Source: Candidatus Nealsoniibacteriota bacterium (GTDB lineage Bacteria; Planctomycetota; Planctomycetia; Pirellulales; Thermoguttaceae). From it: a stretch of 33,092 nucleotides of DNA. The first letter of the stretch is position 1, and every line of letters starts with the position of its first letter. The notes below the pieces were generated by a model, which did not search any database, had not been told where the DNA came from, and saw only the letters and a list, made by a program, of their open reading frames with translations. Below are positions 1 to 31,356 of the stretch, one piece after another. The stretch is from NCBI GenBank assembly GCA_013202865.1, contig JABMRB010001231.1:1-33092 (forward strand), written 5' to 3'. Position numbers and translations under genes: made by a program.

Positions 1-123
1 ATCGATCATTCGATAAATGCAAGTCTTGCTCAAAATCAACGAGCAAGGGTTATGAGCACGGGACTCTCACGCCTGTGAGTCGGCCCCGATGAGCGCTGCA
101 CTTTCACGCCGGTGTTTACAGGA

Positions 124-307
124 AGGCCCCGGCTCGGGCTCAACAACAGCAGGGCCGCCCTGCCTTACGTCTCACCGTCGCCGTACACCCTCAGGACTTA
201 GGCGAAGGGCGTACGGCGACGGCGAGACGACGGCGAGACGACGGCAGGGCTAATCCAGGGTGGTCCACTTCGGTGCCGGTGCCTGGTCCCATTTGCGAGC
301 CGATCTC
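124..307 (+). repeat. Direct repeat DR1, copy 1 (184 bp)
   Basis: Near-identical to 11401-11573 (aggcccc..tcgggctcaacaacagcagggccgccctgc..tgcgagccgatctc). The 11-bp length difference equals a tandem duplication of ggcgagacgac in this copy. Confidence 0.93.
157..250. repeat. Long imperfect inverted repeat (hairpin) inside DR1 copy 1
   Basis: gccctgcc..ctcaccgtcgccgtacaccct pairs with agggcgtacggcgacggcgag..ggcagggc around a ~14-nt loop. Confidence 0.85.
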
Positions 308-860: not shown

Positions 861-1529
861 TCAGAGACACGGCTGTGCCTGCGAGCCCAATTGTTTCCAC
901 AGACGTCTCCGCGCGTAAACACCAAGATCCGATGCATCCATATCCGCGTTACTTATCGGTGGCACCATGCCATTGGCCAGATTAGAAAACAGGAACCGTC
1001 GCTCACACGGTGCCCCGCCGCCTGCTGTCCACGCATCAACCAACTCAGTATATCCACCGAAACCGTCAAGCCAAAAGGCGAGAATATCGGAGCCCAACTC
1101 GGTCAGCTCACCCCCGAGCAATATTCCATCTGGAGGCAGCTGTTCCGAACGTAAACCACGTCGATCGGAGTCCGATTGGACACCATTGATATCAACGACG
1201 GAATCCTTATCCTTGACTAGGATGGCCTCTCGTCGTTTCTTCTTCCTGTACCAATCCACTGTGCAGTTACTCCAGCATGTCTTTAGGAAGGCTCGGCACG
1301 ACCTTCTTTTCGGGTCACAGTTAGGAAGAAATGTCTCATGCGTGGCCAGGAGCACTTCCTGGCCCATGTCCTGCCGGTCCGCCTTGCAAAGGCTGCTCCA
1401 CTTCCCTGCAATGTAACGCTCGATCTCCTCGTTTACTTCTTCAAACAATCGTTTATAAGAAGTGTCGCGTTCATCATCAGCAGCCGTAACAAATTCGAGA
1501 TACAGTGTATCAAGCGTCGACTGGTTCAT
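861..1529 (-). CDS. ECF-type RNA polymerase sigma factor-like protein
   Basis: Region-2-like segment DRQDMGQEVLLATHETFLPNCDPKRRSCRAFLKTCWSNCTVDWYRKKKRREA. C-terminal region-4-like segment is weak. Start overlaps upstream stop by 4 nt. Confidence 0.65.
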   Translation of the reverse strand: MNQSTLDTLYLEFVTAADDERDTSYKRLFEEVNEEIERYIAGKWSSLCKADRQDMGQEVLLATHETFLPNCDPKRRSCRAFLKTCWSNCTVDWYRKKKRREAILVKDKDSVVDINGVQSDSDRRGLRSEQLPPDGILLGGELTELGSDILAFWLDGFGGYTELVDAWTAGGGAPCERRFLFSNLANGMVPPISNADMDASDLGVYARRRLWKQLGSQAQPCL

Positions 1530-3340
1530 CGTAGCACTTTCTCCTTCTCTTCGCCGTTCAGTATGCTCCTGGCTTGAACGTGCCCTTGCCAGTCTTCTTC
1601 TTCCTTCATCACGAGCCCCCGCAAGAAGTGGCGTTCAATCGGCCTTAGTCCAAAAGTACCGGCCTCCTCGTTCCAACCTCTGCCGGCAAGCACGTCAGAT
1701 ATCCGCAAAGCAAGATTTCCACGCTTCTTGCCTCCGGTTGACAGCGGGAGCGACTCGTCATTGAGTGCCAGCAGATTTTTCATCCAATTGTGTGAAGTGT
1801 CGATGTTCTCTCCTCCATGCCAAGCAAACACAGAAGGACTCTCTGGAATCGGATACAGAGCCAGATACACATCATTCGACATAATCGTGGGGTTTATCTC
1901 GCTGCCGTCTTCCCCTGTGAGATCATGGAAGCGGCGCTCCAAGTGCTTCTTGGCATTGAGCACCCTTTCAACAAGACGTTTGATAATCAGAATAGCCGCC
2001 CACCGTCGCACAAGGTCAGAATATTCGCCCGCAAATAGATCACAACACTTGTCAGTTCCGCAATGTCCGTGCAAACCGTTCGGCGTCGCAAACGTCTTAC
2101 ACCGATCCTTTAGCTTGTGTACCTTGTCGACCTCCACGAGTGCCACAAGTTCACGATGAACCATGCCGGAGATCTTGTCAGCCAGCAACGCCGGCGTATT
2201 GGCGGCATGCTCCAATCGAAATACCTCGGCTGCTTGTTCTTTGATTCCCAAAAGTCTTTCCGCCACGCTTGTGGTGTTGTCGCCATCGCTGCAAGGCTCA
2301 CACGCCTTGACTTGCGTTATCAACGGCCCCAATCTCTTGATTTTTTCGCAAACTGCCTTGTAGGACTTCGGATTTGCGTCTTTCAACGACGGTTCCAAGT
2401 TGGACACGACGCTCAACCAGTCTCGTAATGGAGCGAGCAACGCGGACAGTTGCCCACGTTCCTCAATGAGTTGCGTGTTGTTGTAAGCATCCCACACCGT
2501 CTTAGCCAGTTCATTGGCTGCGACATAGCCCTCTTTAGAAATCACATGATTCTGCAGGTCGTCCACCCAGGCCTGGATTGCCTTGGAACGCTCCTGTTCC
2601 GGCACGTCGATAAAGAGCCCCTGAACAGGTAATCGCCGCGTGCCGAAACGGGATTGGATTGTCACAACTTCGTGGTCGGGATTGGCAGCAAGCGCAATAA
2701 GGTCGCCAATGGAAATTACAATGCGATGGTCGTAGTACAGGCACTCGATGCGTGATCGAAGTCTGCGCACTCCTGCTTCTAGGATGTTCTTCCAGGTTCG
2801 TTTCTTTCCGGCAAACTCGATATCGACGTCATAGCACATCTTGAGCGTGCTTTCCAACTGTCGCACGGTGGGCCCCATGCGTTTCGACTGATAGGTTGTT
2901 GCGACCATGCCAGCCGGATGAAGCCGGAAGTGAGCAGCGTAGATCGAGCCTATCAAGAATCCGTCAAAATCCACCGCCTCATACTTTGCGGATAGGAAAC
3001 TCAATTGCGGGCCACTTTCCCCTGAATCGCCCTCATCCGCGTCCGACGCATCGTGAACATCGAATTGTCCTGCCGTCTTTCCCGAAGGATTGTATGTTGA
3101 GAGGTCGTAATCGATGGCAACTAGTTCGACAGGGAACACTGAGTCATTAGCATTTGAAGACAAATAGGCCTTCAGTAGTTGATTGAAGTCCTCGATGCTC
3201 TTGAGAGAGTCATTCTTGCCAGCGTCATCTTTGCAGACCACCTCGAAGAAGGGATCATACACACCGAGCCCACGTTCCGGGTGTCCGCTCTCCGGAATGT
3301 CATCAATCCAAAGGATTGCTATTTTGTCAAAGCTGGTCAT
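1526..3340 (-). CDS. Receiver-domain-like response regulator with large uncharacterised C-terminal part
   Basis: 604 aa. N-terminus ILWIDDIPES, candidate phosphoacceptor region LVAIDYDLS, later GFLIGS and ATTYQ, consistent with a divergent receiver. Cys/His cluster HGHCGTDKCC in the C-terminal half. Confidence 0.6.
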   Translation of the reverse strand: MTSFDKIAILWIDDIPESGHPERGLGVYDPFFEVVCKDDAGKNDSLKSIEDFNQLLKAYLSSNANDSVFPVELVAIDYDLSTYNPSGKTAGQFDVHDASDADEGDSGESGPQLSFLSAKYEAVDFDGFLIGSIYAAHFRLHPAGMVATTYQSKRMGPTVRQLESTLKMCYDVDIEFAGKKRTWKNILEAGVRRLRSRIECLYYDHRIVISIGDLIALAANPDHEVVTIQSRFGTRRLPVQGLFIDVPEQERSKAIQAWVDDLQNHVISKEGYVAANELAKTVWDAYNNTQLIEERGQLSALLAPLRDWLSVVSNLEPSLKDANPKSYKAVCEKIKRLGPLITQVKACEPCSDGDNTTSVAERLLGIKEQAAEVFRLEHAANTPALLADKISGMVHRELVALVEVDKVHKLKDRCKTFATPNGLHGHCGTDKCCDLFAGEYSDLVRRWAAILIIKRLVERVLNAKKHLERRFHDLTGEDGSEINPTIMSNDVYLALYPIPESPSVFAWHGGENIDTSHNWMKNLLALNDESLPLSTGGKKRGNLALRISDVLAGRGWNEEAGTFGLRPIERHFLRGLVMKEEEDWQGHVQARSILNGEEKEKVLR

Positions 3341-3345
3341 GCTTG

Positions 3346-5226
3346 CTATTCCTTACTTTGTTCCATGCCAGATAAATGGATGGCCACGCCATAAAACGGG
3401 ACGCCCTTTGTGTTCTTGTAGCGGCGGTGCCAAACAGAGCCAACATCCAGATTGTGAAGTATGCCGGCCACCATCCCGAGCCCCTTGCCAGCGGAGTCGT
3501 CCACTCGCGTATACGCGTCCGGTAGGCTTCGCCACTTAAGAAAGCCGAGGTCGCGGTCATCATTTTGCACGTCGACCCAGTTGCACAACAGCATTGCGGG
3601 CAAACCGTCGACTAAGTCTGATTTGACAATCAATGATACCGTCGCGAGGTTGTGAGCGACAGTGTTATTGATCCCCCCGTGTCGAATTGCGTTTAGGAGC
3701 ACCTCATAGAAGACGGCGGACAGCACTTCATCGCCAAGCCGACAGCGAGCATTCTCATCATCCACAATTTCCGGAGACAATCGCAACGAACAGTTGTTGT
3801 CCACGATTACTCTCAATTCCAGGGAGCATTCCCCGAAGCCGTCGATGCACCGAGAAGACAAAACATTGGCCGCCCATTTCCTAACCTGATGCACCAGATC
3901 AAGGGGACTTCGATCGTAGGAAACGAAGCGTTCCCTTTTCGCCTTTTCTTTCTTGTAGTACTCCCAGAAGCTGTCGATCCGGTCGAATCCCCACAACTGA
4001 AGCGTTTGATAGGTGTTGGACAGCGTTCGTGCGCTTCGCATTGCGAGGTAGGTGCCACGAGAGACGTCATCAAGAGCATGAATTCCCGTGCCCGCGTTTT
4101 CCATCTCGCGCTGGTAATCCGTTAGATGTTTACCTTGAATATCCACGAGCTGCCGTTCGACGTCGTCACAGCGATTGCGCATGATATGGCCTGAGTTGCG
4201 GAATGCCGATTCCATGACTCTCAATACTTCTGAATGCCGTTGTGTCTCAGCCATCGCCTGCAGGACCGGCGAAGCGTTGAGTCCCAGGAGCATTCGCAGA
4301 ATATGGTGGAACGCCCTGTCCGGCTCCTCATGATCCATCGTCGGCCAATAGATCACCATCGTGGAATCGAATCTGTTCTGAGCTGTTGGTGAATGGAAGT
4401 AGGAGACGCTGGAGTGGCCCATTCCCTCGCAGTAGATTGCCATCAGTGCGAAGTGTTGCACGGCGTTCTGGCATTCCTTACACAGTTTCTTCTGCATGTC
4501 CTCTGCGACTCCCTTTTCTGCCAGTTGTTCTCCGAGTGAAGAAGTGGAATGCTCCCACGCTTTTATATGACTGGCAAGCTGCTCTTTTGCAATGTCATAA
4601 TATCCCTTTGCCGAACGCGACTGTCCGAATTCCCTCCAAATATCACGAACGGTGTTGATGATCGCGTTCGGCGTTGCGCCAGGTGGACGAAGGAACTGGA
4701 CTGTGATATCCCTTGCATTATCCCACTCTTCTCGCTCATTCGCATCGACGCGGTGTTCCAGGTTGTCAGGGAAGAACGCTCGAAATTGAATTCCAACGCT
4801 ATTTGGACGCAATGTGAAAATATGGGCCAGGGCGAGGCCAGATTCTTTTCTCGCTAACATCTGAAGGAATGGCAACGAATGGTAGGAATCGTTGAGAAGA
4901 AGAACAATCTCGCGAAAGAAGTCCGAGAATTTCCCGCCCCCCTCCAACTGTCCTCGCCCTCCCGTGGGAGCCACTCCTTTGAGTCGTTCACGCTCAGCCT
5001 TCTCCTTTCCTGGTGTCCAAAACACTTCCGTTCCAGGATAGATTGGCCTAAGACACTCTTCGAGATCCCCTGAGAAACGCATCTCTAACTGTTCGCGGTT
5101 ATGGTCGTAGGAGGCGACTCGCAACAAGAGTGAATTGCACAACCAAATCGCGTGTTCCGTAGGGCATTCATTCCCCTGGCGGCGGTCTGGATAGTTGCAT
5201 TTGTGGCCGGTTGTTGTTTCAGTCAT
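3346..5226 (-). CDS. GHKL ATPase / atypical histidine-kinase-like protein
   Basis: 626 aa. N-box-like EVLLNAIRHG and G-box-like GKGLGMVAGIL. Possible His-box GHIMRNRCDDVE. Confidence 0.7.
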   Translation of the reverse strand: MTETTTGHKCNYPDRRQGNECPTEHAIWLCNSLLLRVASYDHNREQLEMRFSGDLEECLRPIYPGTEVFWTPGKEKAERERLKGVAPTGGRGQLEGGGKFSDFFREIVLLLNDSYHSLPFLQMLARKESGLALAHIFTLRPNSVGIQFRAFFPDNLEHRVDANEREEWDNARDITVQFLRPPGATPNAIINTVRDIWREFGQSRSAKGYYDIAKEQLASHIKAWEHSTSSLGEQLAEKGVAEDMQKKLCKECQNAVQHFALMAIYCEGMGHSSVSYFHSPTAQNRFDSTMVIYWPTMDHEEPDRAFHHILRMLLGLNASPVLQAMAETQRHSEVLRVMESAFRNSGHIMRNRCDDVERQLVDIQGKHLTDYQREMENAGTGIHALDDVSRGTYLAMRSARTLSNTYQTLQLWGFDRIDSFWEYYKKEKAKRERFVSYDRSPLDLVHQVRKWAANVLSSRCIDGFGECSLELRVIVDNNCSLRLSPEIVDDENARCRLGDEVLSAVFYEVLLNAIRHGGINNTVAHNLATVSLIVKSDLVDGLPAMLLCNWVDVQNDDRDLGFLKWRSLPDAYTRVDDSAGKGLGMVAGILHNLDVGSVWHRRYKNTKGVPFYGVAIHLSGMEQSKE

Positions 5227-6527
5227 GCATCACCATAGAACTCTTGGTAGAATCCGTTTCGCAGTTCGACTAGTTTCTCCATCGGACATTCACAGCGAAC
5301 AATGACATGTTCTCCGTCATAGTGGTCCCAATTCTCGTCTTGAATGAGCCCGCGTCTATGATACTCCTTGTGAATCGGAGTGCCTGGGAAGGGCACCAGG
5401 AAGGAGACATAGGGGAAATCGATCGCAATGCCGCTCTCTCGCAGCATCAGGAGGCGATTCAGCCCGTACTGGATTAGGCCATAATTCTCGTGAGGCTCAC
5501 CGATTATATACGACGGGCACACACGAATACCATGATCGCAGAGAATTTGCAGGCTTTCCTCCACGTTCGGGCCGCCGGCCTTATGGTAATGTCGAAGTGT
5601 CGCCGGGATAAACGACTCCAGGCCAATCACGGATCGACTATATCCCGACTGGCGGAGCAACGGCAGAAGACGATGGACTTTTGGATTCTTTAGATCGGTA
5701 AGCTTCATGTATGTGTGCCACTTGACGGGACTGCCGCGATCGACCAACCCTTGGGCAATCGCCCGCACGCGACGCGGATTGGAGAAGAAATCCTCGTCCC
5801 AGATAGCCAGCGTCTCAACTCCGTAGCGTGTTGTGAGATGGTCGACTTCTTCAAGAATCTGTTTAACAGACCTCGACAGGGGACGCTCGTAGCGGCACGC
5901 AGTATGGCAGAACGTGCATTTGTAGCGGCAACCTCGCTGGGCATGGATTGTTGCATAACGCTTGCCCGGAAAAGCTTCGGCCGAGTATTCATCCATGGGA
6001 AGCCCTTCTCGTTCCATCATCGGCAGTTCGGCCGGATACACGCGTTGGGCGGCGGAAGTCGACATTGCATGGACCCCATCACTTCCTCGGTAGGCGATGC
6101 CGGGAATGTCGGCGGGCGAAGCTCCCTCCAGGTAGGTGAGAAAGGCTTGCTCACCATCGCTAATCACTGCCATATCTGCGTCAGCCGTTTCCGCAAGGCG
6201 TACGGCATTCTCTGAAGTGACGCACTCGCCACCGATTGCTATTCTAGCATTCGGGATCACTTCGCGAACCAGTCGAACGCTATCGCAACTTCTATTGAAA
6301 TTGAAGTTTCGTACGGAGAAGCCGACGACCGTGGGCTGGTAGTCGGCGAGCACATTTCGAAGATCATCTTCGACGGAAGTTCGGAGTAAGTGCAGTAACC
6401 GACAATCAATTGCACGTTTCTTGAGCAACGCGGCCAGATAGCACAAGCCGATGGGCTCGGAATGCGAGAGACGCTGCAGCCCGCCAGCCGGCTTATCGAT
6501 TTTGACCAAGAGGACCCTTTCGTTCAC
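5223..6527 (-). CDS. B12-binding-domain-type radical SAM protein
   Basis: CxxxCxxC motif (QRGCRYKCTFCHTAC), N-terminal Rossmann-like region (VVGFSVRNFN, IAIGGECVTSENA). GTG start at 6527 preceded by aaggagg and overlapping the upstream TGA (GTGA), so the listed ORF start at 6686 is too long. Confidence 0.88.
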   Translation of the reverse strand: MNERVLLVKIDKPAGGLQRLSHSEPIGLCYLAALLKKRAIDCRLLHLLRTSVEDDLRNVLADYQPTVVGFSVRNFNFNRSCDSVRLVREVIPNARIAIGGECVTSENAVRLAETADADMAVISDGEQAFLTYLEGASPADIPGIAYRGSDGVHAMSTSAAQRVYPAELPMMEREGLPMDEYSAEAFPGKRYATIHAQRGCRYKCTFCHTACRYERPLSRSVKQILEEVDHLTTRYGVETLAIWDEDFFSNPRRVRAIAQGLVDRGSPVKWHTYMKLTDLKNPKVHRLLPLLRQSGYSRSVIGLESFIPATLRHYHKAGGPNVEESLQILCDHGIRVCPSYIIGEPHENYGLIQYGLNRLLMLRESGIAIDFPYVSFLVPFPGTPIHKEYHRRGLIQDENWDHYDGEHVIVRCECPMEKLVELRNGFYQEFYGDA

Positions 6528-7246
6528 GCCGGTCCTCCTTCCGGTGCGTGCTTGGTCTTCTCGAATCGTACGAGATGTCCGTCGGAGAGTTCCAGAACGT
6601 GGTCCCCCCACGATTCCGCAAGTTCGTGGTCGTGGGTGACCATGACGGTGGTTATGCGATGCTCGCGAATCCATGCCCGAGTCCACCGCAGAAGATTCTC
6701 TCGGACTGTCGGGTCCAAGTTGGCCACAAACTCGTCCAAGAGCAGGATAGATGGACTTCGCATCATTGCCATGATGATTGCCACCTGCTGGCGTTCCCCT
6801 CCCGAAAGCTCCGAGACTGGCGTATTCTCGAACGATTCAAACCGCTCCTGCAACCCGGCCCTTTTCAGAAAAGCATGGATGTCATGCTGAAAACGGTGTT
6901 CAGGAAATGTCAAGAGATACGAGGGACGCCGGGAAAACACGAGGCTCAGGTTTTCGAGCGGCGTCATGGAACCGACAACGCCAAGCCCAACGTCCTGAAA
7001 AACGCTGACTACTTCACTTCGCATGTTGGTGACCGGAGTATCGTCGACGAGTATTTCACCTTGGTCCCAGGGAAAAGCGCGCCGCAAACAATTCAACAGA
7101 GTTGTCTTCCCGGAACCGTTGTGGCCGATTACCGACAATATCTGGCCACTTTGGAGCGAAAACGAAATGTCCCTAAGCGCTGGAACTTCCCGTCCGCCCG
7201 GGGTGATGAAGGTCTTCGACAGACTATCTACTTGCAGATGCGACAT
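6524..7246 (-). CDS. ABC transporter ATP-binding protein
   Basis: Walker A GHNGSGKTT, signature LSGGERQQ, Walker B SILLLDEF, H-loop VTHDHE. Confidence 0.95.
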   Translation of the reverse strand: MSHLQVDSLSKTFITPGGREVPALRDISFSLQSGQILSVIGHNGSGKTTLLNCLRRAFPWDQGEILVDDTPVTNMRSEVVSVFQDVGLGVVGSMTPLENLSLVFSRRPSYLLTFPEHRFQHDIHAFLKRAGLQERFESFENTPVSELSGGERQQVAIIMAMMRSPSILLLDEFVANLDPTVRENLLRWTRAWIREHRITTVMVTHDHELAESWGDHVLELSDGHLVRFEKTKHAPEGGPA

Positions 7247-7248
7247 TG

Positions 7249-8145
7249 CTATATTCGTATCTTTTCGAGCACATTATGGCCAAAGAAGCCGTTGCTTCGC
7301 GCGAGCCAGCAAAACGCTATCACCATTAGCGAAGTCACTAGGTCCAAACCGCCATCGGGCATGCCGAGATTCAATGCCAGGAGACGCACTAATTGCATAA
7401 CCAAAGTACCGCCAATACAGGCGAGGAAAGCCGGCGCTAGTCTTCTGGTTGGGAAGATGGCCTCGCCCAACATGATCGCAGCTAGCGCCGAGATGGCCAT
7501 GCCACGTCCCATGTTTATGCTCGCGTAGCCCGATCGCTGTGAGAGCAGGGCCGCAGCCAGGCCAATGACCCCATTAGCAATTGCCAGGCCGACCATATCC
7601 CAGACAAGCAACGAGTGGCCTAATTCTCGTGCAAGATTGGGGTTCTCGCCACGTATGCGTAGCATGAAACCACTACCCGTTCGTAACAAGCTTACAACCC
7701 CGACGACAATCACGGCGAGTGACAACGCCATGCCCACAATTCCCACTGCTAGTGGATTATCGAGAAAACCAAGCACAGAGCCTAGTACCCAATCATCCGG
7801 AAGTGTTCGGCTCGGCTGGCCCGCAACAAGAAGGCCAACAGAGAAGCACATCATCATTGTAAGGATCGAAGCCAGAATCGTTGGCAACTTCACTAAATTG
7901 GCCAACGCGGCAGTCGTCAACCCAGCAGCGACTCCCGCCAAAACGCTGACTATCAGGGCGATCCAAGGCGAGCCCGTGCTGACATACGCCATGCCGCCAA
8001 GAATGGCTGAAAGCCCGAAACCACCCTCTGCCGTCAAGTCGGGAAACCGCAAAACGCGGAACGACAGGTATACGCCAATCGTGACGACCGAGAACAACAG
8101 AGTTGTTTCCAGGGTGTACAGCAATTGTACGACGGTGGAGTTCAT
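7249..8145 (-). CDS. ABC transporter permease (TrpX/LivH-like inner-membrane component)
   Basis: Multiple hydrophobic helices, between binding-protein and ATPase genes. Start MNSTVVQLL at 8145 overlaps upstream stop by 4 nt. Confidence 0.87.
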   Translation of the reverse strand: MNSTVVQLLYTLETTLLFSVVTIGVYLSFRVLRFPDLTAEGGFGLSAILGGMAYVSTGSPWIALIVSVLAGVAAGLTTAALANLVKLPTILASILTMMMCFSVGLLVAGQPSRTLPDDWVLGSVLGFLDNPLAVGIVGMALSLAVIVVGVVSLLRTGSGFMLRIRGENPNLARELGHSLLVWDMVGLAIANGVIGLAAALLSQRSGYASINMGRGMAISALAAIMLGEAIFPTRRLAPAFLACIGGTLVMQLVRLLALNLGMPDGGLDLVTSLMVIAFCWLARSNGFFGHNVLEKIRI

Positions 8146-9131
8146 TCCCCGACCTGCTTTCCTTCTTGTTTCCACGTTTCGGGAACTGCAAGGCCCAACT
8201 CGTCAATCTGGCTGCTGTTATAGTAGAGTTCAAAACGATCCGCTTGACGAATGGGCATTTCGGCCGGTCTCTTCTTGCCGTTTAGGATAACGGCGGCCAT
8301 TTCGGCGGATATCCTGCCCAAGTCATCGTAATTGAAGCCCACGGAAAAGATCGCCCCTTGCTTCGCCGTTCCTTCATCGCAGTTGAAGACGGGGATTTCG
8401 ACCTCATTTGCCGTTCGAACCAAGAGCGGAAACGCGCTCTGAATGGTCGCGTCGGTTGGAGCGTATAACGCGTCGACTTTACCGACGAGTGAAACCAACG
8501 TTTGCTTGATTTCGTTCTGATTCGAGATGGTTGCCGCAACTGGCGTTAGGCCGCGTTCTTGACATTCGATCTTGAAGCGACCCGCGATGATCTCGGAGTT
8601 GTCTTCCGATGGGTTGTAAATGATGCCAATTCGCTTTGCATTTGGCAGCATCTCGGCAAGTCGGTCCAATTGGGCGCTAATGGGGCTGAGATCGCTCGTG
8701 CCTGTGACGTTGTGTCCCGGTTGCTCCCATGAATCTACCAGCCCGGCAGATTGAGGATCGGTGGCTGCCCCAAGTACGATCGGCAGGCTATCGGCCTTCT
8801 TCATCAGGGATTGGGCTTGGTTTGTACCAATGACGAACACGAGATCGTATCCCTCCGTGGCAAATTTCCGAGCCATCTGCTCTGTCTTGGCCGCGTCGCC
8901 CTCGGGCACCATCGTTACAAACTCCACTCTGCCGGGAAATTCTCTCTCCAGAGTCTCGCGAAAGGCGTCGGCCATCCCGTCGAGAACCGGATGCCGCACC
9001 ACTTCGAAAACGCCTACCTTGAAGTGCTTCTCACCCGGAGTCGGCGGCCCGCCGTCCTGGTTTAGGCAAAAGATCAAGGCGATCAGGACGATCACAAGGC
9101 CGATCCCAACATACCACCTTCTGTTTCTCAT
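8142..9131 (-). CDS. ABC transporter substrate-binding protein (ABC_sub_bind/TrpX-like)
   Basis: N-terminal hydrophobic signal; FKVGVFEVVRHPVLDGMADAFRETL, IVLGAATDPQSAGLV, NVTGTSDL, KRIGIIYNPSEDNS typical of the family. Confidence 0.9.
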   Translation of the reverse strand: MRNRRWYVGIGLVIVLIALIFCLNQDGGPPTPGEKHFKVGVFEVVRHPVLDGMADAFRETLEREFPGRVEFVTMVPEGDAAKTEQMARKFATEGYDLVFVIGTNQAQSLMKKADSLPIVLGAATDPQSAGLVDSWEQPGHNVTGTSDLSPISAQLDRLAEMLPNAKRIGIIYNPSEDNSEIIAGRFKIECQERGLTPVAATISNQNEIKQTLVSLVGKVDALYAPTDATIQSAFPLLVRTANEVEIPVFNCDEGTAKQGAIFSVGFNYDDLGRISAEMAAVILNGKKRPAEMPIRQADRFELYYNSSQIDELGLAVPETWKQEGKQVGE

Positions 9132-10126
9132 GACAGAGATCCCTTATTTGCGGGTTTTTCGCAGACAATCAAGTGTTCGTTGTATGAAGGCCCTGTGGGG
9201 AACGGTCGCGACCGTGTCTCCACAAAGCCCGCGCGATGCAGAGCATCGCTCAGTTCCTGCTCTGTATGACATCGTCCGAGCGAGTCTCCGTTCACACCTG
9301 TACTTAGCTCGAACATGTCGAGTTCGACTTGCAATTGCCCGTCATCGGACCGCAAGAAAGTGACAAAAACCGCCTTTCCGCCAGGTTGGAGGTACTCGCA
9401 CACTCGCTTGAGCCATGTGTCGAGTCGGTCCGCCGAGCAGTATTCTAGCAAATGGCTGCAAAACACCGCATCAAATGGTGATTCCGGTGTCCAGGCCGGA
9501 AAATCGCCCGGCACCCAGTGGAAATACTCCGTTTCTCCGTAAAGTGATCTCGCCGTTTCCACCACTGACGTGAGGTCCACCGCAGTCACATCAAGTTGCC
9601 CATCCTCGGCAAGACCTCGACATAGGGTGGCGGGACCAGCCCCCAGGTCAAGAACGCGTCCTAGCAGATGCTCCCTGCACTCCCCCTTGAGGAAGTCAAG
9701 ATTGGATTGGGCGATCACATCCATCGATTTGAGATACGAACGGCAGAAATCGGAATTCTGTATCCGCTGACGGTGAAAGCCCCCACCAGTCTTCATCGAC
9801 ACGACATCGGGCAGCGCAAGCCATGCCTCGAAGCAATGAAGGTGATACCCGGCGAACGCATCGAGGGTTGTGTCGCATTTCGCCGTGGCACCATCGGCAG
9901 TCAATCGATATTGATCATTGTCGCATTCCGCCAACTGAAGCTCGACGAGCAAATTGAGGACTGGTTGGATCCAAGTTCCTTCATAACCGACCCTATTTGC
10001 AACGGAGGTGGACGTTTGCGGTTCGAGTTCAAGCGATCGGAGAATCCCACTGCGCACGGCGAACGCCAAGACGCGCGAGCGCTTGTAGGCACGAAGTTCG
10101 TCGTAAAGTACTGTCAATCCGCTCAT
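9128..10126 (-). CDS. SAM-dependent methyltransferase (O-methyltransferase family 2-like with N-terminal winged-helix region)
   Basis: Motif I VLDLGAGPATLCRGLA, motif II-like AVDLTSV, FDAVFCSHLLEY. ATG at 10126 overlaps upstream TGA by 4 nt. Confidence 0.85.
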   Translation of the reverse strand: MSGLTVLYDELRAYKRSRVLAFAVRSGILRSLELEPQTSTSVANRVGYEGTWIQPVLNLLVELQLAECDNDQYRLTADGATAKCDTTLDAFAGYHLHCFEAWLALPDVVSMKTGGGFHRQRIQNSDFCRSYLKSMDVIAQSNLDFLKGECREHLLGRVLDLGAGPATLCRGLAEDGQLDVTAVDLTSVVETARSLYGETEYFHWVPGDFPAWTPESPFDAVFCSHLLEYCSADRLDTWLKRVCEYLQPGGKAVFVTFLRSDDGQLQVELDMFELSTGVNGDSLGRCHTEQELSDALHRAGFVETRSRPFPTGPSYNEHLIVCEKPANKGSLS

Positions 10127-11100
10127 GTAGGTCGATCTCCCCACGCGTACAATAGCCTCCAACCGATTAGCGTGCCCGCCTTAGTTTGGCATGAGCCAAG
10201 ATAGCGGTCAATGGCGTCGCCAACGAAGCCAGCCTTCTGGCACGGCAACACCAGTGGTTCTGAAATCGACTCTCCGCCTATGCCAAAAAGCTCATGGAGA
10301 AACCAAGTCGCGTCACCAACGGTTGGGAAACACCACGGCGTTATCCTAACCGCAGTCTGCACATTCGTGAATCCCGCTTCTCGCATGATTTGGGCGACGT
10401 GGTTCGCCGTCTCAAAACACGCTGCATGGCCACTCGGGCACTCCGACGCCACGAACTCGTCAAAGAATGCTGCTGGCTCTGGTGCTATGGGGAACGCGGG
10501 GATTTCGAGTGTGGGTCCTGCTGCTCGTCCCAATGCGGCCTTCAGGTTCGGAAGGTTGGCAACATAATCTCGCCCCCTCCCGTTTTCCGAAGAAGTCACT
10601 TCACCGGTTTGCGGCACGTCTGCGAGAATCAATCGCCCCCCCGGGCGCAGCAAGGCTCGCCATCGCCTCAATACTCCCAGCCTGACACGTTCGGTATCTA
10701 AAGCCGAAAGGGAACTGTCTCGTTCAGCCTCTTCGGCAAGGATGTGATGAAAACCCGCCAAGCAAACCGCGACGTCATATTCCCCGGGCAATTGGCGCAG
10801 TCCCGATTCCCGGCATGCATCGCCTTCGTACACCTTGCGTTTGGTCGATGGGGCGGGCAGCAGGCTTGCTGTTTCATCGATCAGGTCAATCCGTCGAAAC
10901 ACTGGTGCCAGCCAATCCGACGCGAAACCCGCCCCCCCAAAGATGTCGAGCATAACGCCATTCCTACCTGCGGCAAGCTCGCATATATGTGCAAGTTCCG
11001 CCACCCGAGCTTCCGGAAATCGCTGCATAGCGGCCACATAGCGTACGGCTCTAGCTCGAAACGCCTCGCGACAATTGAGCTTCGTCGTAATTCGTGTCAT
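10123..11100 (-). CDS. SAM-dependent methyltransferase, class I
   Basis: MLDIFGGAGFASDWLAPVF (motif I), YDVAVCLAGFHHIL, LRPGGRLILADV. First gene of the minus-strand operon. Confidence 0.75.
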   Translation of the reverse strand: MTRITTKLNCREAFRARAVRYVAAMQRFPEARVAELAHICELAAGRNGVMLDIFGGAGFASDWLAPVFRRIDLIDETASLLPAPSTKRKVYEGDACRESGLRQLPGEYDVAVCLAGFHHILAEEAERDSSLSALDTERVRLGVLRRWRALLRPGGRLILADVPQTGEVTSSENGRGRDYVANLPNLKAALGRAAGPTLEIPAFPIAPEPAAFFDEFVASECPSGHAACFETANHVAQIMREAGFTNVQTAVRITPWCFPTVGDATWFLHELFGIGGESISEPLVLPCQKAGFVGDAIDRYLGSCQTKAGTLIGWRLLYAWGDRPT

Positions 11101-11400
11101 GGCAAGTAGTTAGATGATGTCGTCTGGTGGAAGGTGGGTTGCTGACACAACCTCTCACTGTACTATAGGAAAATCGATTTGACTCATCCTGTCAATCGCT
11201 GCCAAACGACATCTGCGATTGGTAAAGCACGTCGTAGCAGAATGTTACGTCGATGTCGTCATTTCTCTATCCCGGAGATCTACCCCCGAGCATCCCGAAG
11301 TGAGCATGCACGAAGGAACCTCGAACGCAGGATTGCTTCAAGCAGTGGAGATCGATGCGCAAATTGACCCGGCACAAGCCGAATTACTGGCAATGTCGGG

Positions 11401-11573
11401 AGGCCCCAGTTCGGGCTCAACAACAGCAGGGCCGCCCTGCTTTACGTCTCACCATCGCCGTACACCCTCAGGACTTCGGCGAAGGGCGTACGGCGACGGC
11501 GAGATGACGGCAGGGCTAATCGAGGGTGGTCCACTTCGGTGTCGATGTCTGGTCTCATTTGCGAGCCGATCTC
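11401..11573 (+). repeat. Direct repeat DR1, copy 2 (173 bp)
   Basis: Matches 124-307. Lacks the 11-bp tandem duplication and differs by scattered substitutions. Confidence 0.93.
11434..11516. repeat. Long imperfect inverted repeat (hairpin) inside DR1 copy 2
   Basis: gccctgctttacgtctcaccatcgccgtacaccct pairs with agggcgtacggcgacggcgagatgacggcagggc. Confidence 0.85.
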
Positions 11574-11951: not shown

Positions 11952-12109
11952 AGAACTCATGTCGTCAATCTACGCGCCGAGAACCCGTGGGCGGCCAGGT
12001 AGATGACAGAGCCTCGCAATCGATGGCCACCCCCCACCGGGTGAGTATTGGGCCCGTTGTGAATGCTCCGCAGCCGGTCTGAGCGTTAGACCGCTCTCCG
12101 GAAATCTTC
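11952..12109 (+). repeat. Direct repeat DR2, copy 1 (158 bp)
   Basis: Shares tcgtcaatctacgcgccgagaacccgtgggcggccaggtagatgaca exactly with 29939-30096, plus tgaatgctccgcagcc and ccggaaatcttc at matching offsets. Confidence 0.94.
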
Positions 12110-12110
12110 A

Positions 12111-12260
12111 CCGGTGCTGGTGGCAGCCTACATTGAGGAACTGGGGCTCTACCGCGCTCCGCCCACCGTGCAGCAGCATCTCGCCGCAATTCGCACACTG
12201 TTTGATTTCCTGGTCATTGGGCAGGTCGTCCCCTTCAACCCGGCCGCATCCGTGGCCTAG
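12111..12260 (+). pseudogene. Tyrosine recombinase fragment (N-terminal SAM-like domain region)
   Basis: Translates to PVLVAAYIEELGLYRAPPTVQQHLAAIRTLFDFLVIGQVVPFNPAASVA*, aligning with IVVAAYVESLSSELSRPTVKLHLAAIRMLFDYLVTGHVVAVNPAASVR of the intact integrase at 30142-31125. Confidence 0.9.
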
Positions 12261-12380
12261 CAAGCTACGGATTTACGCTCGTGGACTCTCCACCGCTCAT
12301 GCCCATATGTGTTTGGCTGAGACAACTGGCCGGCGTACCCACATTCCACACTGAACAGCGTGCGATGTAGGTCGACGATG

Positions 12381-12441: not shown

Positions 12442-12528
12442 CGCTTCCTTTCCCGTTCCGAGTTTGGTAATGTTTGCAGGTGTTCATGAGTCCGTTCCGC
12501 CAGAGATTTGGCAGGCGAGGTGAGATCC

Positions 12529-12759
12529 ATGCCGAAACTAAGCGAGTATTTGACGATCAAGGACGCCGCCGAGTTCTTGGCTGTGTCCCAGAATACCCTG
12601 AGAAACTGGGAGGCGAGCGGCAAGATTGCCGTTCATCGAAACCCAATGAATGGCTATCGCCTTTTCAAGACCCAAGACCTGCAGAACTTGCTGGAAGAGA
12701 TCGAAAAGTCAGCCGCCCCGGCGAACCCGAAATCCCGGCGTCCAAGGCAAGCGAAGTAG
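12529..12759 (+). CDS. MerR/excisionase-type helix-turn-helix protein
   Basis: LTIKDAAEFLAVSQNTLRNWEASGKIAVHRNPMNGYRLFKTQDLQNLL. Preferred start at 12529 with gaggtga upstream (listed ORF starts at 12508). Confidence 0.88.
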   Translation: MPKLSEYLTIKDAAEFLAVSQNTLRNWEASGKIAVHRNPMNGYRLFKTQDLQNLLEEIEKSAAPANPKSRRPRQAK

Positions 12760-12799
12760 ACCGCCAGCACTGTCCTCACAACCTTGTGGCAATCCGACG

Positions 12800-15700
12800 A
12801 TGGACATCTTTCAGCTGCATTCGGAAATCGTCCGCGATTACCGGTCGTACATCGAGAGTTTCATCAACATTCGTGACGATAAGATCCGCGAGGTTGTTGA
12901 GCGTTCTCTCCTTGGGGGGCGTCTCTGGCCGGAGCCAATGCTCCAATTCAACCCGGCATTCGAGACCGTTGCCGACATATCAGAGGTTATCGATCAAGGA
13001 CTGCTTTCCAAGGAGCTCAAGGACATTTTTTGGGACATGCGCTCTGGTGAACCCTATCGTTTGTATCAGCACCAGCTAAAAGCGTTGAAGCTTGGTGCTG
13101 CCGAGCGAGATTTTATTGTGACGTCTGGGACGGGGTCAGGGAAATCACTAACGTTCATCGGCACGGTTTTCAACCATCTTTTCAAAACGAATAGCTTTGG
13201 TAGCGGTGTTCAAGCGGTGTTCGTATACCCAATGAATGCGCTGATCAATTCGCAAGTTGACGAGCTTGATAGATACGCGGCGGCGTTTGAGAAGCGTACT
13301 GGCACACCGTTTCCCGTGCGATACGCGTCCTACACCGGCCAGCTAAGAGAAGACGACCGCGAACCATTGCGTGAATCCCCTCCGGATATTTTCTTGACGA
13401 ACTACATGATGCTGGAACTCATCCTGACCCGGCATCGTGAACACGTCATCCGAGACTCGATCTTTGAGCATCTCCGGTTTCTTGTGTTCGACGAATTGCA
13501 CACGTACCGGGGGCGTCAGGGGGCTGACGTTGGGATGCTCGTGCGCCGCATTCGCGCCAAGAGCACACACCAACCGGTCTGCATCGGCACATCGGCTACG
13601 ATGGTGTCTGGTGACAGTTCCGTCGAAGAACAAAAGCAGGAGGTGGCAAACGTCGCATCACAGATCTTCGGGGCTCAGTTTGAGTCGGAGCAAATCATAA
13701 ATGAAACGCTGACGAAGTCATTCTCTCCCGAGTCGCCGCTTCCCTCACGAGAAGAACTTACCAAGTCCGTCGAAACCAGTGTTGACTTTGATGCTGGTCC
13801 AGAACACCTTTCTTCCAATCCCGGTGCAATATGGCTTGAAAGTCGCATTGCCTTGACCGAGAAGGACGGTGATCTTGTTCGTAACGTACCAAGGACTTTC
13901 CTTGAAATCGCCAATTCGCTTTCCGAGGACACCGGCCACTCGGTTGATCACTGCTCAACACACCTACGTGATCTTATGCAGTGGATTAACCTTGTAAATG
14001 AGCGCAATCCTGACTCTCGCTACACCTATCTTCCATTCAAGCTCCACCAATTCTTCGCACAAACCGGTTCAGTCTACACCTCGCTTTCGCAGGCTGATGA
14101 TCGCATCATCACGATGGAACCCGGTATTTTTAAGACAGACGATCGGGGTAAGACACCGATTTTCCCCAACGCGTTCAGCCGCGGATCTGGTCACGCATTC
14201 ATTTGCGTCTACATGGACACCAGAGAACGGCAATTGCTGCCTCGCGAATTCAACGACACGGAGCTGGAAAGTGCGTCACGCATCCCCGGATATGTCATCG
14301 TTGGAGAGGATGTCTGGAACCCCGCGGAAGACCGTGAATCGATGCCCGAGTCATGGTTCAAGGTAAGCAAGTCTGGGGAAGTTTCTATTGTCAAGAAATA
14401 CGAAGACCGGATTCCGCAACCCGTCTCCTTTGATGAATCGGGGAACTACTCGGTATCCCACGCCATGGATTACACAGGCTGGTTCATGTCCTGCCCTCTC
14501 CTGTTCGATCCAACTAGCGGGCAGTTTTTCGATCCACAGACGAATGAGTCGACGAAGTTGACACGCTTGGGAAATGAGGGACGAAGCACATCTACCACGA
14601 TTACGGCATTCTCCATCTTGTCTCGTCTCAGTGAACACGGCTATCTCCCACAGGATCAGAAGCTCCTCAGCTTCACGGATAATCGACAGGACGCGGCGTT
14701 GCAGTCTGGTCATTTCAATGACTTTATCAAGGTCGTCCAGCTTCGTTCAGCGATATGCAACGCCGTCGAGACGGCACCTGACGGACAGCTCACCTACACG
14801 AACCTTGGTGACGCGATCTTCAATGCACTGAAACTGGATTTTCGTGAATACGCCAACTACAAGAGCGACATCCAAGCCGCTCCACCACCGCCGGTTCTCC
14901 ACGCATATCATGAGTCACTAAAGAAGTACCTCGTATATCTCGCATTGTACGATCTCCGGCGAGGCTGGCGGGTAGTACTGCCCAACCTTGAGCAATGTGC
15001 CCTCCTGAAGATCGACTACGCACACCTCGACGACATCGCCGCTTGGGACGAAGGCTGGGCCACAGTACCACCGTTCAATTCACTGCCGGTGTCTGAGCGA
15101 CGGCAGTTGCTCTTCAATGTGCTGGATTTGTTTCGTCTCGAATATGCAATCTACAGTGAAAACTATCTCACCGAGGAGCGAATTCGCCAGAACAAGAAGG
15201 AGATTGAGGAGAAGCTCATTCCTCCATGGAAGTTCGAGGAAGCCGATCGGATCGATCCGTATTACCTTCGATATGACACGCTGGCTCCACGTACCAAGCT
15301 GTACACGAAGAGCGTCGGTCTGACCAGTGCCTTGGGTAAATTTATCCGGCAGAGGATACGGCAGATTGATCCGGACTTCGAACTAAAACGAGATTCCTAC
15401 TTAGAACTTATCGTGGCTTTGCTGGACATGTTGGAGGCAGCCACCTATCTCACGTCACGAACAGCGCAAAATCGCGAGAACAAAGAAGTCAAGGTCTACC
15501 AGCTAAGATTGGACAAGATCATATGGCTGCGAGGGGATCGCGAGACCGTGGCTCCTGATGTAGTGAAGCGGCGAACGTACAAGGCCATCACACCCCAGCC
15601 GAACCGCTTCTTTCAGCAAGTCTATCTGCGTGACTTTTCCGAGATCAAACGGTTAATTGGCGGCGACCACACCGGGCAACTGAGCAACGAACAGCGAATC

Positions 15701-17977
15701 GATCGGGAGGAGCGTTTTCGAGCTGACTTCCGAGACTCGGATGGCAAGCCCGACCTCGATCGAATCATGCGTGAGTCCGTCAGTGCTCTATTCTGTTCTC
15801 CGACGATGGAGTTGGGAATCGACATTCGGAATCTGAATGTTGTCCATATGCGGAATGCGCCACCAAACCCAGCCAATTATGCACAGCGCGGTGGCCGAGC
15901 TGGACGAGGCGGTCAGGCTGCTCTCGTGTTCACCTACTGCTCTAGCTTCTCAAACCACGATCGTCATTACTTTCGCAATCAACAGAAGATGGTTGCGGGA
16001 ACCGTGCTGCCACCACGAATCGACCTCTGCAACAAGGAATTGCTCACGTCCCATCTGCACGCTGTGTTCTTGTCCGAGGTCGGCCTCAAGGGCCTCGACT
16101 ACTCACTGCTCGATATCATTGACGAAGGCGAAGCTGGGCTGCCGCTGACGATGCCAACGCAGGCACAGTTGCAGGTCGATCAACTTGCATACGCGAAGAT
16201 ACGTGCAACGTTCCAACGGGTCATAAGGAACTTCGAGGCAACGTTGACGACGGACCATGGACACTGGTATAGCGAGCAGTGGATCGACAAGACCTTGGCA
16301 AACATCGGAAGAAGCCTAGATTCCATTATGGACCGTTGGCGACGGCTGTACCGGCAAGCGAAAGCCACTTTGTCCCGCGCCACGCAAGAAATCGAAAGTG
16401 GCACGTACAGTCTTGGCAGCAAAGAGTACAAGCAGGCGAAACGCAATCAGGATCAGGCGACTAGGCAGTTGGATCTACTCAAGAACGATGTCCGAGGCCG
16501 ATCCAATCAGCTCTCCGAGTTCTACCCGTACCGTTTTTTGGCCTCTGAGGGATTCCTGCCCGGTTATAACTTCACACGATTACCACTTCGTGTGTTCATT
16601 CCGATGGGCGACGCGGGTGAGTACATCTCCCGACCCCGTTTCATGGCGCTGCGAGAGTTCGGGCCCGGCAATGTCATCTATTACAATGGGCAGAAATATG
16701 AGATCCGGCAACTCATCGTCCAAGATGCCGAGAACCATCTGCAGGAAGCGAAGATCAGCCTGAACGCCGGGTACTTTCTTCGTGACAATCAGAAAGATCT
16801 TGAACTATGTCCTTTCACAGGGGTCAGTTTGTCGGACAACCAGCAGGTCGAGTACCTGCATGACTTGCTCGAAATGTGCGAGACCCGAGCAGCGCCACGT
16901 GCCCGCATCTCGTGTGAAGAGGAGGAACGCCTCAACAAGGGATTCCAAATCGACACCTATTTTTCCGTCGCAGACGGAGCGATGAACCGTGTGCAAAAGG
17001 CGGTTCTGAAGAGCGGCGAAGACGAGTTCCTTCATCTCCACTTCATCCCCGCGGCGAATCTGATTCAGGTGAACCGAAAGTGGAAGAGCAGCGAGAAAGA
17101 TGGCTTCACGCTTGGAATGATGTCCGGATTTTGGAAGACGGGCAACCTCGATGATCGGGGGCCGGATGCCGAGAGCATTAGGAACGTAAAGCTCATCACC
17201 ACCGATACAGCCGATGCACTGTACATTGAGCCGATTGAGCCGCTCGGACTGGACCGAGCCGGCGTGATCACGCTGCAATACGCCCTGAAGCGAGCCATAG
17301 AACGCATATTCCTCATTGAGTCATCCGAACTCGCAGTCGTTTCCATGGGGCGAGCGGATCTCCCCAATATCTTTCTGTACGAAGCAGCCGAGGGCAGTCT
17401 GGGAATTCTGTCTCAGTTCGTAAAGAACGTTGATACATTTCAACGTGTCGTCAACGAAGCCATCAGTCTACTGAGATACGACGATCCCGCGTACCGCGAT
17501 CCCGCATCGTACGATGACTTGCTCAGCTACTACAATCAGCGAGATCATCCGATCATCGATCGCTTTCTAATTCAGGACGCACTTGGCAAACTCAGGGGAT
17601 GCAAGCTCGAACGGCAAACCAGCGGCAGCCACAGCGATTATGACTCACACTACCAGACTCTGCGGCGTCAAGTCGATCCGAACTCTAGCACGGAAGTTGA
17701 ATTCCTCGACTATCTCTACCAGAACGATCTGCGTCTACCGGACGCGGCCCAGAGGACGGTTGATGGAATTTACGTCCAGCCGGATTTTTTCTACGAGCCG
17801 GATGTCTGGGTGTTTTGCGATGGCACGCCGCATGACAAGCCAGACGTTCGCTTGGATGACGAAGCCAAACGACAAGCTATCCTGAATCGTGGCGAACAGG
17901 TTTTCGTTTACTATTACAAGGATGATCTGGCAACGAAAGTCGCCAGCCGTCTGGACATTTTCACCAAGGTGCGCTGA
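12800..17977 (+). CDS. Large DExH helicase with DUF1998-like region and C-terminal Vsr/DUF559-like nuclease segment (DruE / fused DrmA-DrmB-like)
   Basis: ~1725 aa. Motif I TSGTGSGKS, motif II FDELH, GTSATM, CSPTMELGIDI, QRGGRAGRGG. C-terminal PDFFYEPDVWVFCDGTPHD..RQAILNRGEQVFVYYYKD. Start at 12800 (MDIFQLHSEI) because the listed start overlaps the HTH gene. Confidence 0.87.
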   Translation: MDIFQLHSEIVRDYRSYIESFINIRDDKIREVVERSLLGGRLWPEPMLQFNPAFETVADISEVIDQGLLSKELKDIFWDMRSGEPYRLYQHQLKALKLGAAERDFIVTSGTGSGKSLTFIGTVFNHLFKTNSFGSGVQAVFVYPMNALINSQVDELDRYAAAFEKRTGTPFPVRYASYTGQLREDDREPLRESPPDIFLTNYMMLELILTRHREHVIRDSIFEHLRFLVFDELHTYRGRQGADVGMLVRRIRAKSTHQPVCIGTSATMVSGDSSVEEQKQEVANVASQIFGAQFESEQIINETLTKSFSPESPLPSREELTKSVETSVDFDAGPEHLSSNPGAIWLESRIALTEKDGDLVRNVPRTFLEIANSLSEDTGHSVDHCSTHLRDLMQWINLVNERNPDSRYTYLPFKLHQFFAQTGSVYTSLSQADDRIITMEPGIFKTDDRGKTPIFPNAFSRGSGHAFICVYMDTRERQLLPREFNDTELESASRIPGYVIVGEDVWNPAEDRESMPESWFKVSKSGEVSIVKKYEDRIPQPVSFDESGNYSVSHAMDYTGWFMSCPLLFDPTSGQFFDPQTNESTKLTRLGNEGRSTSTTITAFSILSRLSEHGYLPQDQKLLSFTDNRQDAALQSGHFNDFIKVVQLRSAICNAVETAPDGQLTYTNLGDAIFNALKLDFREYANYKSDIQAAPPPPVLHAYHESLKKYLVYLALYDLRRGWRVVLPNLEQCALLKIDYAHLDDIAAWDEGWATVPPFNSLPVSERRQLLFNVLDLFRLEYAIYSENYLTEERIRQNKKEIEEKLIPPWKFEEADRIDPYYLRYDTLAPRTKLYTKSVGLTSALGKFIRQRIRQIDPDFELKRDSYLELIVALLDMLEAATYLTSRTAQNRENKEVKVYQLRLDKIIWLRGDRETVAPDVVKRRTYKAITPQPNRFFQQVYLRDFSEIKRLIGGDHTGQLSNEQRIDREERFRADFRDSDGKPDLDRIMRESVSALFCSPTMELGIDIRNLNVVHMRNAPPNPANYAQRGGRAGRGGQAALVFTYCSSFSNHDRHYFRNQQKMVAGTVLPPRIDLCNKELLTSHLHAVFLSEVGLKGLDYSLLDIIDEGEAGLPLTMPTQAQLQVDQLAYAKIRATFQRVIRNFEATLTTDHGHWYSEQWIDKTLANIGRSLDSIMDRWRRLYRQAKATLSRATQEIESGTYSLGSKEYKQAKRNQDQATRQLDLLKNDVRGRSNQLSEFYPYRFLASEGFLPGYNFTRLPLRVFIPMGDAGEYISRPRFMALREFGPGNVIYYNGQKYEIRQLIVQDAENHLQEAKISLNAGYFLRDNQKDLELCPFTGVSLSDNQQVEYLHDLLEMCETRAAPRARISCEEEERLNKGFQIDTYFSVADGAMNRVQKAVLKSGEDEFLHLHFIPAANLIQVNRKWKSSEKDGFTLGMMSGFWKTGNLDDRGPDAESIRNVKLITTDTADALYIEPIEPLGLDRAGVITLQYALKRAIERIFLIESSELAVVSMGRADLPNIFLYEAAEGSLGILSQFVKNVDTFQRVVNEAISLLRYDDPAYRDPASYDDLLSYYNQRDHPIIDRFLIQDALGKLRGCKLERQTSGSHSDYDSHYQTLRRQVDPNSSTEVEFLDYLYQNDLRLPDAAQRTVDGIYVQPDFFYEPDVWVFCDGTPHDKPDVRLDDEAKRQAILNRGEQVFVYYYKDDLATKVASRLDIFTKVR

Positions 17978-17980
17978 GAC

Positions 17981-20827: not shown

Positions 20828-20897
20828 CCAGAGTTTGGGAAACGTCGGCACAATGAAGACATCCGACATGGGATAGGAGCGGCAACCGCCGTAGGCA

Positions 20898-24683: not shown

Positions 24684-24693
24684 GTACGCGACG

Positions 24694-28519: not shown

Positions 28520-29283
28520 GCCTGTTCACTGACCCGCAAGGTATTGATGCGTACGGGCATCGGCTTGCGCAACTGCTCATCGTCGGCGGTTACCAACTGG
28601 AATCACGTGCCGCGTGTGGCAAACGTGTCCTTTTTGACACATGGGCAAAGGCCGTCAGGTCCGAGGCTCGGAAACGCGGCATTGAAGCATCGCCCGATCA
28701 ACTGCGCTGGCTGTGGGATTCCCTCAAGGTTGAGCCTGAAACCAAGAAGGCCCTTGGTAAGCTGATGGTCGACGGTGCGGAGGTGAAGCCCGTTAAGGTC
28801 CTGCCGAAGGGCTGCACGTTTTCCATAGACCTGAAGAACATCTCGACGGGGTATGGCAGAAAGGGCGATGCCTTCGGTCCAAAGCTCAAACCGACCGCAA
28901 AGGTCACGATTGATAACGATTTGTACATGAAACGTGGCAAGAAGAACCATCTCGAATGTCAGCCGCTAAAAGCGACTTTGTGCATGACGATCCACAGCGA
29001 TGTGGACTCCGAGGAAGCCGAAGCGGCCAAGATGAAGGCAAAGCCAACCAATGTGTCAGTCGCTGGGAGCGAGGTGACGGTACAGGTTGGCAGCCTTAAC
29101 CAAGCTTACACGAAGGCAAGCCTACGGCTCGAACCAGATCGACAAAGCCACGGTGGTCGCACGTACGACGCTCTCTTTTGGATCGCCCCTCCGGGAGAAC
29201 AGGTGTCACTCGGAGAGATTCGAGACGATGTCGAATGCGGAAAATGGACCTTCCCCGACCTGTCACTCTCTGAAGAGGAGTAG
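28516..29283 (+). CDS. Uncharacterised protein (255 aa)
   Basis: ORF overlaps the previous stop by 4 nt. Beta-rich-looking C-terminal half. No family recognised. Confidence 0.75.
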   Translation: MSLFTDPQGIDAYGHRLAQLLIVGGYQLESRAACGKRVLFDTWAKAVRSEARKRGIEASPDQLRWLWDSLKVEPETKKALGKLMVDGAEVKPVKVLPKGCTFSIDLKNISTGYGRKGDAFGPKLKPTAKVTIDNDLYMKRGKKNHLECQPLKATLCMTIHSDVDSEEAEAAKMKAKPTNVSVAGSEVTVQVGSLNQAYTKASLRLEPDRQSHGGRTYDALFWIAPPGEQVSLGEIRDDVECGKWTFPDLSLSEEE

Positions 29284-29938: not shown

Positions 29939-30096
29939 AGAACTCATCTCGTCAATCTACGCGCCGAGAACCCGTGGGCGGCCAGGTAGATGACAAAGCT
30001 CTCCCAATCGACATCCACCCCCCCATGGGGGAATACTGGCCGGCTGTGAATGCTCCGCAGCCATTCTGAGCGTTGACGCACTTTCCGGAAATCTTC
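29939..30096 (+). repeat. Direct repeat DR2, copy 2 (158 bp)
   Basis: Same length and order of conserved blocks as 11952-12109. Confidence 0.94.
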
Positions 30097-30141
30097 GCCT
30101 CGGAAGAAGGAACGCGTCCTCGTTGTTGTCGGGGCGGTCGA

Positions 30142-31125: not shown

Positions 31126-31356
31126 GGCGCTCCATGTGTTCACCCTAGTATACCACATCGAGACCGTTCCAAAAAGGACGTTTTGCAGCACATTCCTTTG
31201 TCCACCCACCAATGCCCCAACGGCTTCGATTTTCCACACGCAGCTCGTCAGGAATTGCCCTAGTCTGGATTTGCAGATCAATCGATGGGCGACCGCGATG
31301 CACCTTGCGTGAATAGCCGCCCAACGCGAGCCATTGACATCACTTCCGGGGGCTGC

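Follow-up and report, generated by a model that had tools for sequence, protein, structure and literature searches.

A putative import-coupled kinase-receiver module encoded in a nine-gene operon beside a defence cluster in a member of the Planctomycetota

Gene Content and Organization of the Operon

The window, by which we mean the whole stretch of 33,092 nt that was analyzed, carries on its minus strand nine open reading frames between positions 861 and 11100, all with intact frames (Table 1). Gene starts were set at the positions that give the junctions described here (10126 for mt2, 8145 for the permease, and 6527, a GTG codon, for rSAM) rather than at the longest-ORF starts, and the GTG start of rSAM is preceded by a strong Shine-Dalgarno sequence, AAGGAGGA. 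With the true starts set, six junctions are 4-nt overlaps (mt1/mt2, mt2/SBP, SBP/permease, ATPase/rSAM, rSAM/kinase, and receiver/sigma) and the remaining two are gaps of 2 nt (permease/ATPase) and 5 nt (kinase/receiver), which confirms the layout given in the first-pass annotation of this DNA. All nine genes are similar in GC content by codon position. These co-oriented genes are a real operon, and their ATGA/GTGA overlaps indicate that it is very probably translationally coupled.

Table 1. Features in and around the operon in the window and at the second locus (contig C33 of a Pseudomonadota genome)
Feature	Position	Strand	Description	Remarks
Left repeat	121..307		~180 nt, long hairpin	Flanks operon
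sigma	861..1529	-	ECF sigma-like protein	Region 2 recognized, region 4 not
receiver	1526..3340	-	Receiver-like protein	Motif level only
kinase	3346..5226	-	Soluble histidine-kinase-like protein	H-box, N-box, G2 box
rSAM	5223..6527	-	Radical SAM enzyme with B12-binding domain	CxxxCxxC present; GTG start
ATPase	6524..7246	-	ABC ATPase, TrpZ-like	Walker A, signature, and Walker B all present
permease	7249..8145	-	ABC permease, BPD_transp_2, TrpY-like
SBP	8142..9131	-	Binding protein, ABC_sub_bind/TrpX family	N-terminal hydrophobic segment; selectivity positions D252, Y268
mt2	9128..10126	-	Class I methyltransferase, O-methyltransferase-like	Weak dimerization domain; ATGA overlap with mt1
mt1	10123..11100	-	Class I SAM-dependent methyltransferase (Methyltransf_23)	First gene of operon; E 1.9e-6
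Right repeat copy	11398..11573			Flanks operon
Defence-flanking repeats	11952-12112, 29939-30099		160-bp direct repeats, 86%
Integrase-like fragment	about 12120-12261			Left end of defence cluster
Defence cluster	12508-29283		Composite	Divergent from operon
Tyrosine integrase	30142-31362			Right end of defence cluster
Second locus, ATPase	15478-14615	-	ABC ATPase
Second locus, permease	14796-13822	-	BPD_transp_1 permease
Second locus, binding protein	13825-12752	-	NMT1 binding protein
Second locus, binding protein	12452-11472	-	Another NMT1 binding protein
Second locus, fusion	11475-8908	-	Methyltransferase-kinase fusion
Second locus, receiver	8915-7398	-	Receiver-like protein

Pfam and NCBIfam support the identification of the methyltransferases and of the ABC_sub_bind/TrpX, BPD_transp_2, ABC_tran, and Radical_SAM plus B12-binding proteins. 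Both domains expected of a B12-dependent radical SAM enzyme are present in rSAM, together with the CxxxCxxC motif; its homologues in the phylum are generic and at most ~30% identical. The last gene, called a sigma factor before, matches sigma-70 region 2 and not region 4, and its scores (E 0.013 in Pfam; E 2e-4 at best in NCBIfam) fall short of the curated cut-offs.

Membership in MADS, raised by the PADLOC models mads_2/3/8, was rejected, as specific mad2/mad3 homologues are not present. The operon ATPase matches mad3, but Escherichia coli PhnC matches it better, and E. coli CheR also matches mad2, less strongly than mt2 does; the matches of the operon are therefore generic. The mads_2 and mads_3 profiles (PDLC04134 and PDLC04135) pick up ordinary enzymes of both kinds, methyltransferases and transport ATPases, so that they can give false defence calls.

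Kinase-Like and Receiver-Like Proteins

The two large proteins of the operon, of 626 aa (kinase-like) and 604 aa (receiver-like), had no convincing match among the Pfam, NCBIfam, and PADLOC models or the PDB sequences, and in the window the kinase, receiver, and sigma proteins lacked a specific PADLOC match (best E 0.05). No transmembrane segments were predicted in the kinase or the receiver, so the signal should be intracellular, which fits import.

The kinase-like protein contains an H-box, AFRNSGHIMRNR (H347), an N-box, YEVLLNAIRHG (E508 and N512), and a G2 box, GKGLGM; a canonical DxGxG box is not evident, and no Pfam HATPase threshold was reached. When its core was compared by hhalign with six E. 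coli histidine kinases, the match spanned most of that core and placed the histidines opposite each other, at a probability of 82% (E 1e-5) against 0.1-0.2% for unrelated pairings, which supports homology to histidine kinases at the level of profiles. In the receiver-like protein, the pattern D13/D14, D77, T149, K180 is followed by a large C-terminal region (~390 residues) of unrecognized fold. The corresponding hhalign comparison was not significant (P 0.04), and no Pfam match was obtained; the assignment as a receiver is therefore made from motifs and pairing, and any homology is at the motif level only. Of the two names proposed at first, the histidine-kinase-like one is based on motifs and one profile comparison and the receiver-like one on motifs, neither protein falling into a Pfam or NCBIfam family. 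Single-sequence AlphaFold2 models of the two proteins, with pLDDT values of 34 and 36, were set aside.

Importer and Likely Ligand

The importer has all components of the TrpXYZ type, namely, an ABC_sub_bind binding protein (TrpX-like, E 9e-68), a BPD_transp_2 permease, and an ATPase. Its three proteins are homologous to those of the TrpXYZ/CD0873-type importers at roughly 31-39% identity, but the binding protein scores 258 bits against an NCBIfam TrpX cut-off of 390, and the importer sits in a putative signalling operon. The importer alone is common, and among the matches listed its relatives are at most 39% identical. Eighty-five such loci were examined (at least 80 GTDB TrpY loci and five plasmid loci), and none of those listed carries rSAM, methyltransferase, kinase, or receiver genes.

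The solved binding proteins closest to that of the window bind Tyr (6hni), Phe (3lkv), and Trp (3lft). Two residues govern selectivity, being Glu263/Tyr279 in the tyrosine binder CD0873, Ala/Tyr in the Phe binder, and Ala/Gln in the Trp binder (PMC6816091). At the aligned positions the binding protein has D252 and Y268, which is nearest to CD0873 (E/Y) and not to the Trp binder (A/Q), so a tyrosine-like ligand is our best guess from the alignment. The closest plasmid importer of this type, on an Ensifer plasmid (L028 885-8754), lies among apparent tryptophan/kynurenine degradation genes, as read from their translations, which hints at aromatic amino acids or their derivatives as the cargo of related importers.

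A Second Locus of the Kinase-Receiver Pair in the Pseudomonadota

About 1,700 genome searches, some of them overlapping, were made with the kinase, with the pair, or with profiles of both proteins, and two loci of the pair were found in all, one in the window and one in a Pseudomonadota genome; the module therefore looks rare. The second locus was the only match of a joint kinase and receiver query in 399 Pseudomonadota genomes (E 2e-25 and 1.5e-20), and there the two genes are adjacent, on one strand, and in the gene order of the window, at 26-32% identity. The kinase was found only in the window among 60 relatives and 393 genomes from its phylum. Profiles of both proteins brought up no further locus in the genomes searched from the order (246), the Cyanobacteria (166), a gammaproteobacterial class (105), and the class of the second genome (48); the pair was absent from the 297 genomes searched in the phylum to which a Desulfobulbaceae locus belongs and from the plasmids and phages searched, and the kinase alone as query found no match in viral contigs.

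Shared by the two phyla are, in the kinase, AFRN[SA]GH[IL]MxNR, the N-box YE(V/I)(L/F)LNA, and GLGM, with H347, E508, and N512, and, in the receiver, the acidic pair (D14), D77, T149, and K180. The N-terminal halves of the two kinases diverge, as would be expected if the ligands that they sense differ.

In the second genome (G529), methyltransferase and kinase, which have separate genes in the window, form one fusion protein, and the coding region of the fusion overlaps that of a binding protein by 4 nt and that of the receiver by 8 nt. The presence of a methyltransferase and a kinase in one polypeptide suggests a coupling between methyl transfer and sensing. Two hydrophobic stretches of the fusion pass a simple transmembrane filter. 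In PADLOC the second receiver has no specific match, and the fusion matches only mad2, via its methyltransferase domain. The binding proteins upstream resemble 3ix1 (a ThiY-type pyrimidine-precursor binder) and 4nmy, and the importer is of the ThiY/SsuABC type and nonhomologous to that of the window; a transporter of another family thus occupies the same position. No rSAM or sigma gene was recognized near the second locus, so these two genes of the window may be passengers. Since a transposase-like sequence lies downstream of the second receiver, a gene that followed it may have been lost.

The first-pass annotation had proposed one self-contained circuit and a neighborhood search with the kinase and receiver as queries. 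The pair, its order, an importer upstream, and a methyltransferase do recur; the exact MTase-MTase-ABC-rSAM-HK-RR-sigma set does not, as the importer family differs and rSAM and sigma are missing from the second locus. The occurrence of the pair in a further phylum, with its order unchanged and an importer and a methyltransferase present, gives the one-circuit view independent, if partial, support, and these genes look more like a module than like chance neighbors. Their shared core of importer, methyltransferase, soluble kinase, and receiver has the look of a module that recurs and whose parts can be exchanged.

Flanking Repeats and Neighboring Defence Clusters

The long direct repeats reported around the operon are real and 88% identical to each other. 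Elsewhere in the 9.1-Mb assembly, where the repeat has two full copies, we found one partial copy (contig C1338, 46426-46522), and no integron attC core motifs were seen by eye in the repeat. The idea of a mobile cargo between repeats retains one palindromic repeat pair and lacks a recombinase inside it, and mobile defence cargo is only suggestive. The neighboring defence cluster is bounded by direct repeats of its own and has an integrase or integrase-like fragment at each end, an arrangement as for an integrated element by its sequence features; the operon and the defence cluster may be two separate insertions.

The defence-like operon noted next door is also real. It contains a MerR/HTH_17 gene, a DruE-like DEAD helicase with an MZB-like domain, a DpdE/DrmD-like SNF2 helicase, a DrmMI-like methyltransferase, OloA-like and OloB-like genes, and a gene for an unrecognized 255-aa protein, and it is not obviously a standard single system. 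At the second locus, HmaABC with inserted PRTase-CE and NADAR genes lies on the plus strand, 1.4 kb from the ATPase gene. Beyond these HmaABC genes (L135 2902-14914, on C33) come the gene of a very large repeat-like protein and a prophage. Hma is described as a defence system in the BREX-related literature, with experimental support for its helicase (PMC12839542).

Both loci thus diverge from large helicase/DNA-methyltransferase defence clusters. As the window was the starting point of the search, this association counts as one independent observation. No promoter motif common to the operon and the defence genes scored above shuffles. The suspected relation to defence is suggested by the divergent clusters (two of two loci, one of them independent) and not by a shared promoter motif.

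Comparison with Known Signalling and Defence Systems

Like classical two-component systems, the operon encodes adjacent proteins with an H-box and GHKL-type N and G2 boxes in one and the receiver-type D/D/T/K pattern in the other. The two proteins differ from such systems in being soluble, in falling outside every library family tested, and in lacking a recognized DNA-binding output domain, and their operon includes an importer and methyltransferases (the second locus has the kinase-methyltransferase fusion). The Lsr system for AI-2 combines ABC import, enzymatic modification, and intracellular sensing, an outline like that proposed for the operon; however, its importer families and modifying enzymes differ, and the operon has no LsrK/LsrR homologues, a kinase-receiver pair being its putative sensor. 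The PhyR-NepR-EcfG general stress response joins a kinase, a receiver protein, and an ECF sigma factor in one chain, as is proposed for the operon, and is without an importer or methyltransferases. In the operon, the receiver-like domain is N-terminal, the remainder has no sigma-like domain, and NepR was not seen. The Hma/BREX-related and Druantia/DISARM/Dpd systems adjoin the operon at the two loci, but none of their genes is in the operon, which has no specific match to a defence model.

The initial view that this is not a named system stands, as the core pair fits no PADLOC, Pfam, or NCBIfam model and no published description was found. The signalling module is apparently undescribed, rare, and made of known kinds of parts; it is a variant of two-component-type signalling and no new category.

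Proposed Mechanism and Alternative Explanations

We propose that the operon encodes an import-coupled cytoplasmic phosphorelay, to which we assign a probability of about 0.5. A periplasmic binding protein and the ABC importer would take up a small molecule, in this case probably an aromatic amino acid like tyrosine or a derivative of one. The two methyltransferases and rSAM would modify it or, alternatively, report the SAM or methylation state. The soluble histidine kinase, of a so far undescribed family, would then read the product or the state of the enzymes, autophosphorylate at H347, and pass the phosphate to D77 of the receiver, whose large C-terminal part would provide the output, here probably via the cotranslated ECF sigma-like protein. 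The gene set, the overlapping junctions, the lack of predicted membrane segments in kinase and receiver, and the recurrence of the pair with another importer and a fused methyltransferase are observed, whereas we infer the identity of the ligand, its modification ahead of sensing, the phosphotransfer, the activation of sigma, and the target genes.

A tentative and somewhat unlikely alternative is that the module controls, or is accessory to, the divergent anti-phage restriction cluster, in that a metabolite set free by lysing neighbors or produced by kin would be imported and the defence genes switched on. At both loci the operon begins about 1.4 kb from a divergent defence cluster, with DruE/DpdE/DrmMI/OloAB-like genes in the window and the HmaABC cluster with PRTase-CE and NADAR in the other phylum; as the defence types differ, any link would be to defence in general. 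However, there are just the two loci, one of them the starting point, unrelated cargo gathers in defence islands, the operon and the defence genes have no promoter motif in common, and the two blocks in the window have separate flanking repeats.

The genes might instead form a nutrient-uptake or small-molecule biosynthesis operon, for the import of aromatic amino acids, methylations, and radical SAM chemistry, with its own terminal regulators and with no part in cell-cell signalling or defence. The methyltransferase and B12 radical SAM enzyme are typical tailoring enzymes, and the surroundings of the Ensifer importer would suit such a role, but none of the 85 listed TrpXYZ-type loci has any of the enzyme or kinase-receiver genes, and the second locus keeps the pair with a ThiY-like importer and no rSAM nearby. 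As the importer changed, rSAM is lacking, and the pair was kept, the constant part is the pair and not the chemistry, and we hold this explanation to be quite unlikely. It is also conceivable, although we think it very improbable, that the large proteins are a GHKL-type ATPase and a partner with another function (e.g., an effector pair) and that the sigma-like protein is degenerate or unrelated. Although the missing family matches and DxGxG box, the unrecognized C-terminal ~390 residues of the receiver-like protein, and the lack of sigma region 4 would agree with this, the H-box, N-box, and G2 box are kept across phyla, the profile match is to histidine kinases, and the acidic pair, D, T, K pattern of the partner is conserved.

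Two-component systems usually sense at the membrane. An importer that is swapped and a methyltransferase that is kept with a soluble pair would point to intracellular sensing of an imported, perhaps modified, compound. In a broader proposal, which we consider unlikely, the module would belong to an undescribed class of sensors for restriction-type immune islands: a metabolite would be imported and methylated, a soluble, methyltransferase-coupled kinase and its receiver would then adjust the expression of the adjacent anti-phage cluster, and importer and output would have been swapped between lineages. If the association with restriction islands is true, it would offer a testable answer to the question of when bacteria express large, costly defence systems.
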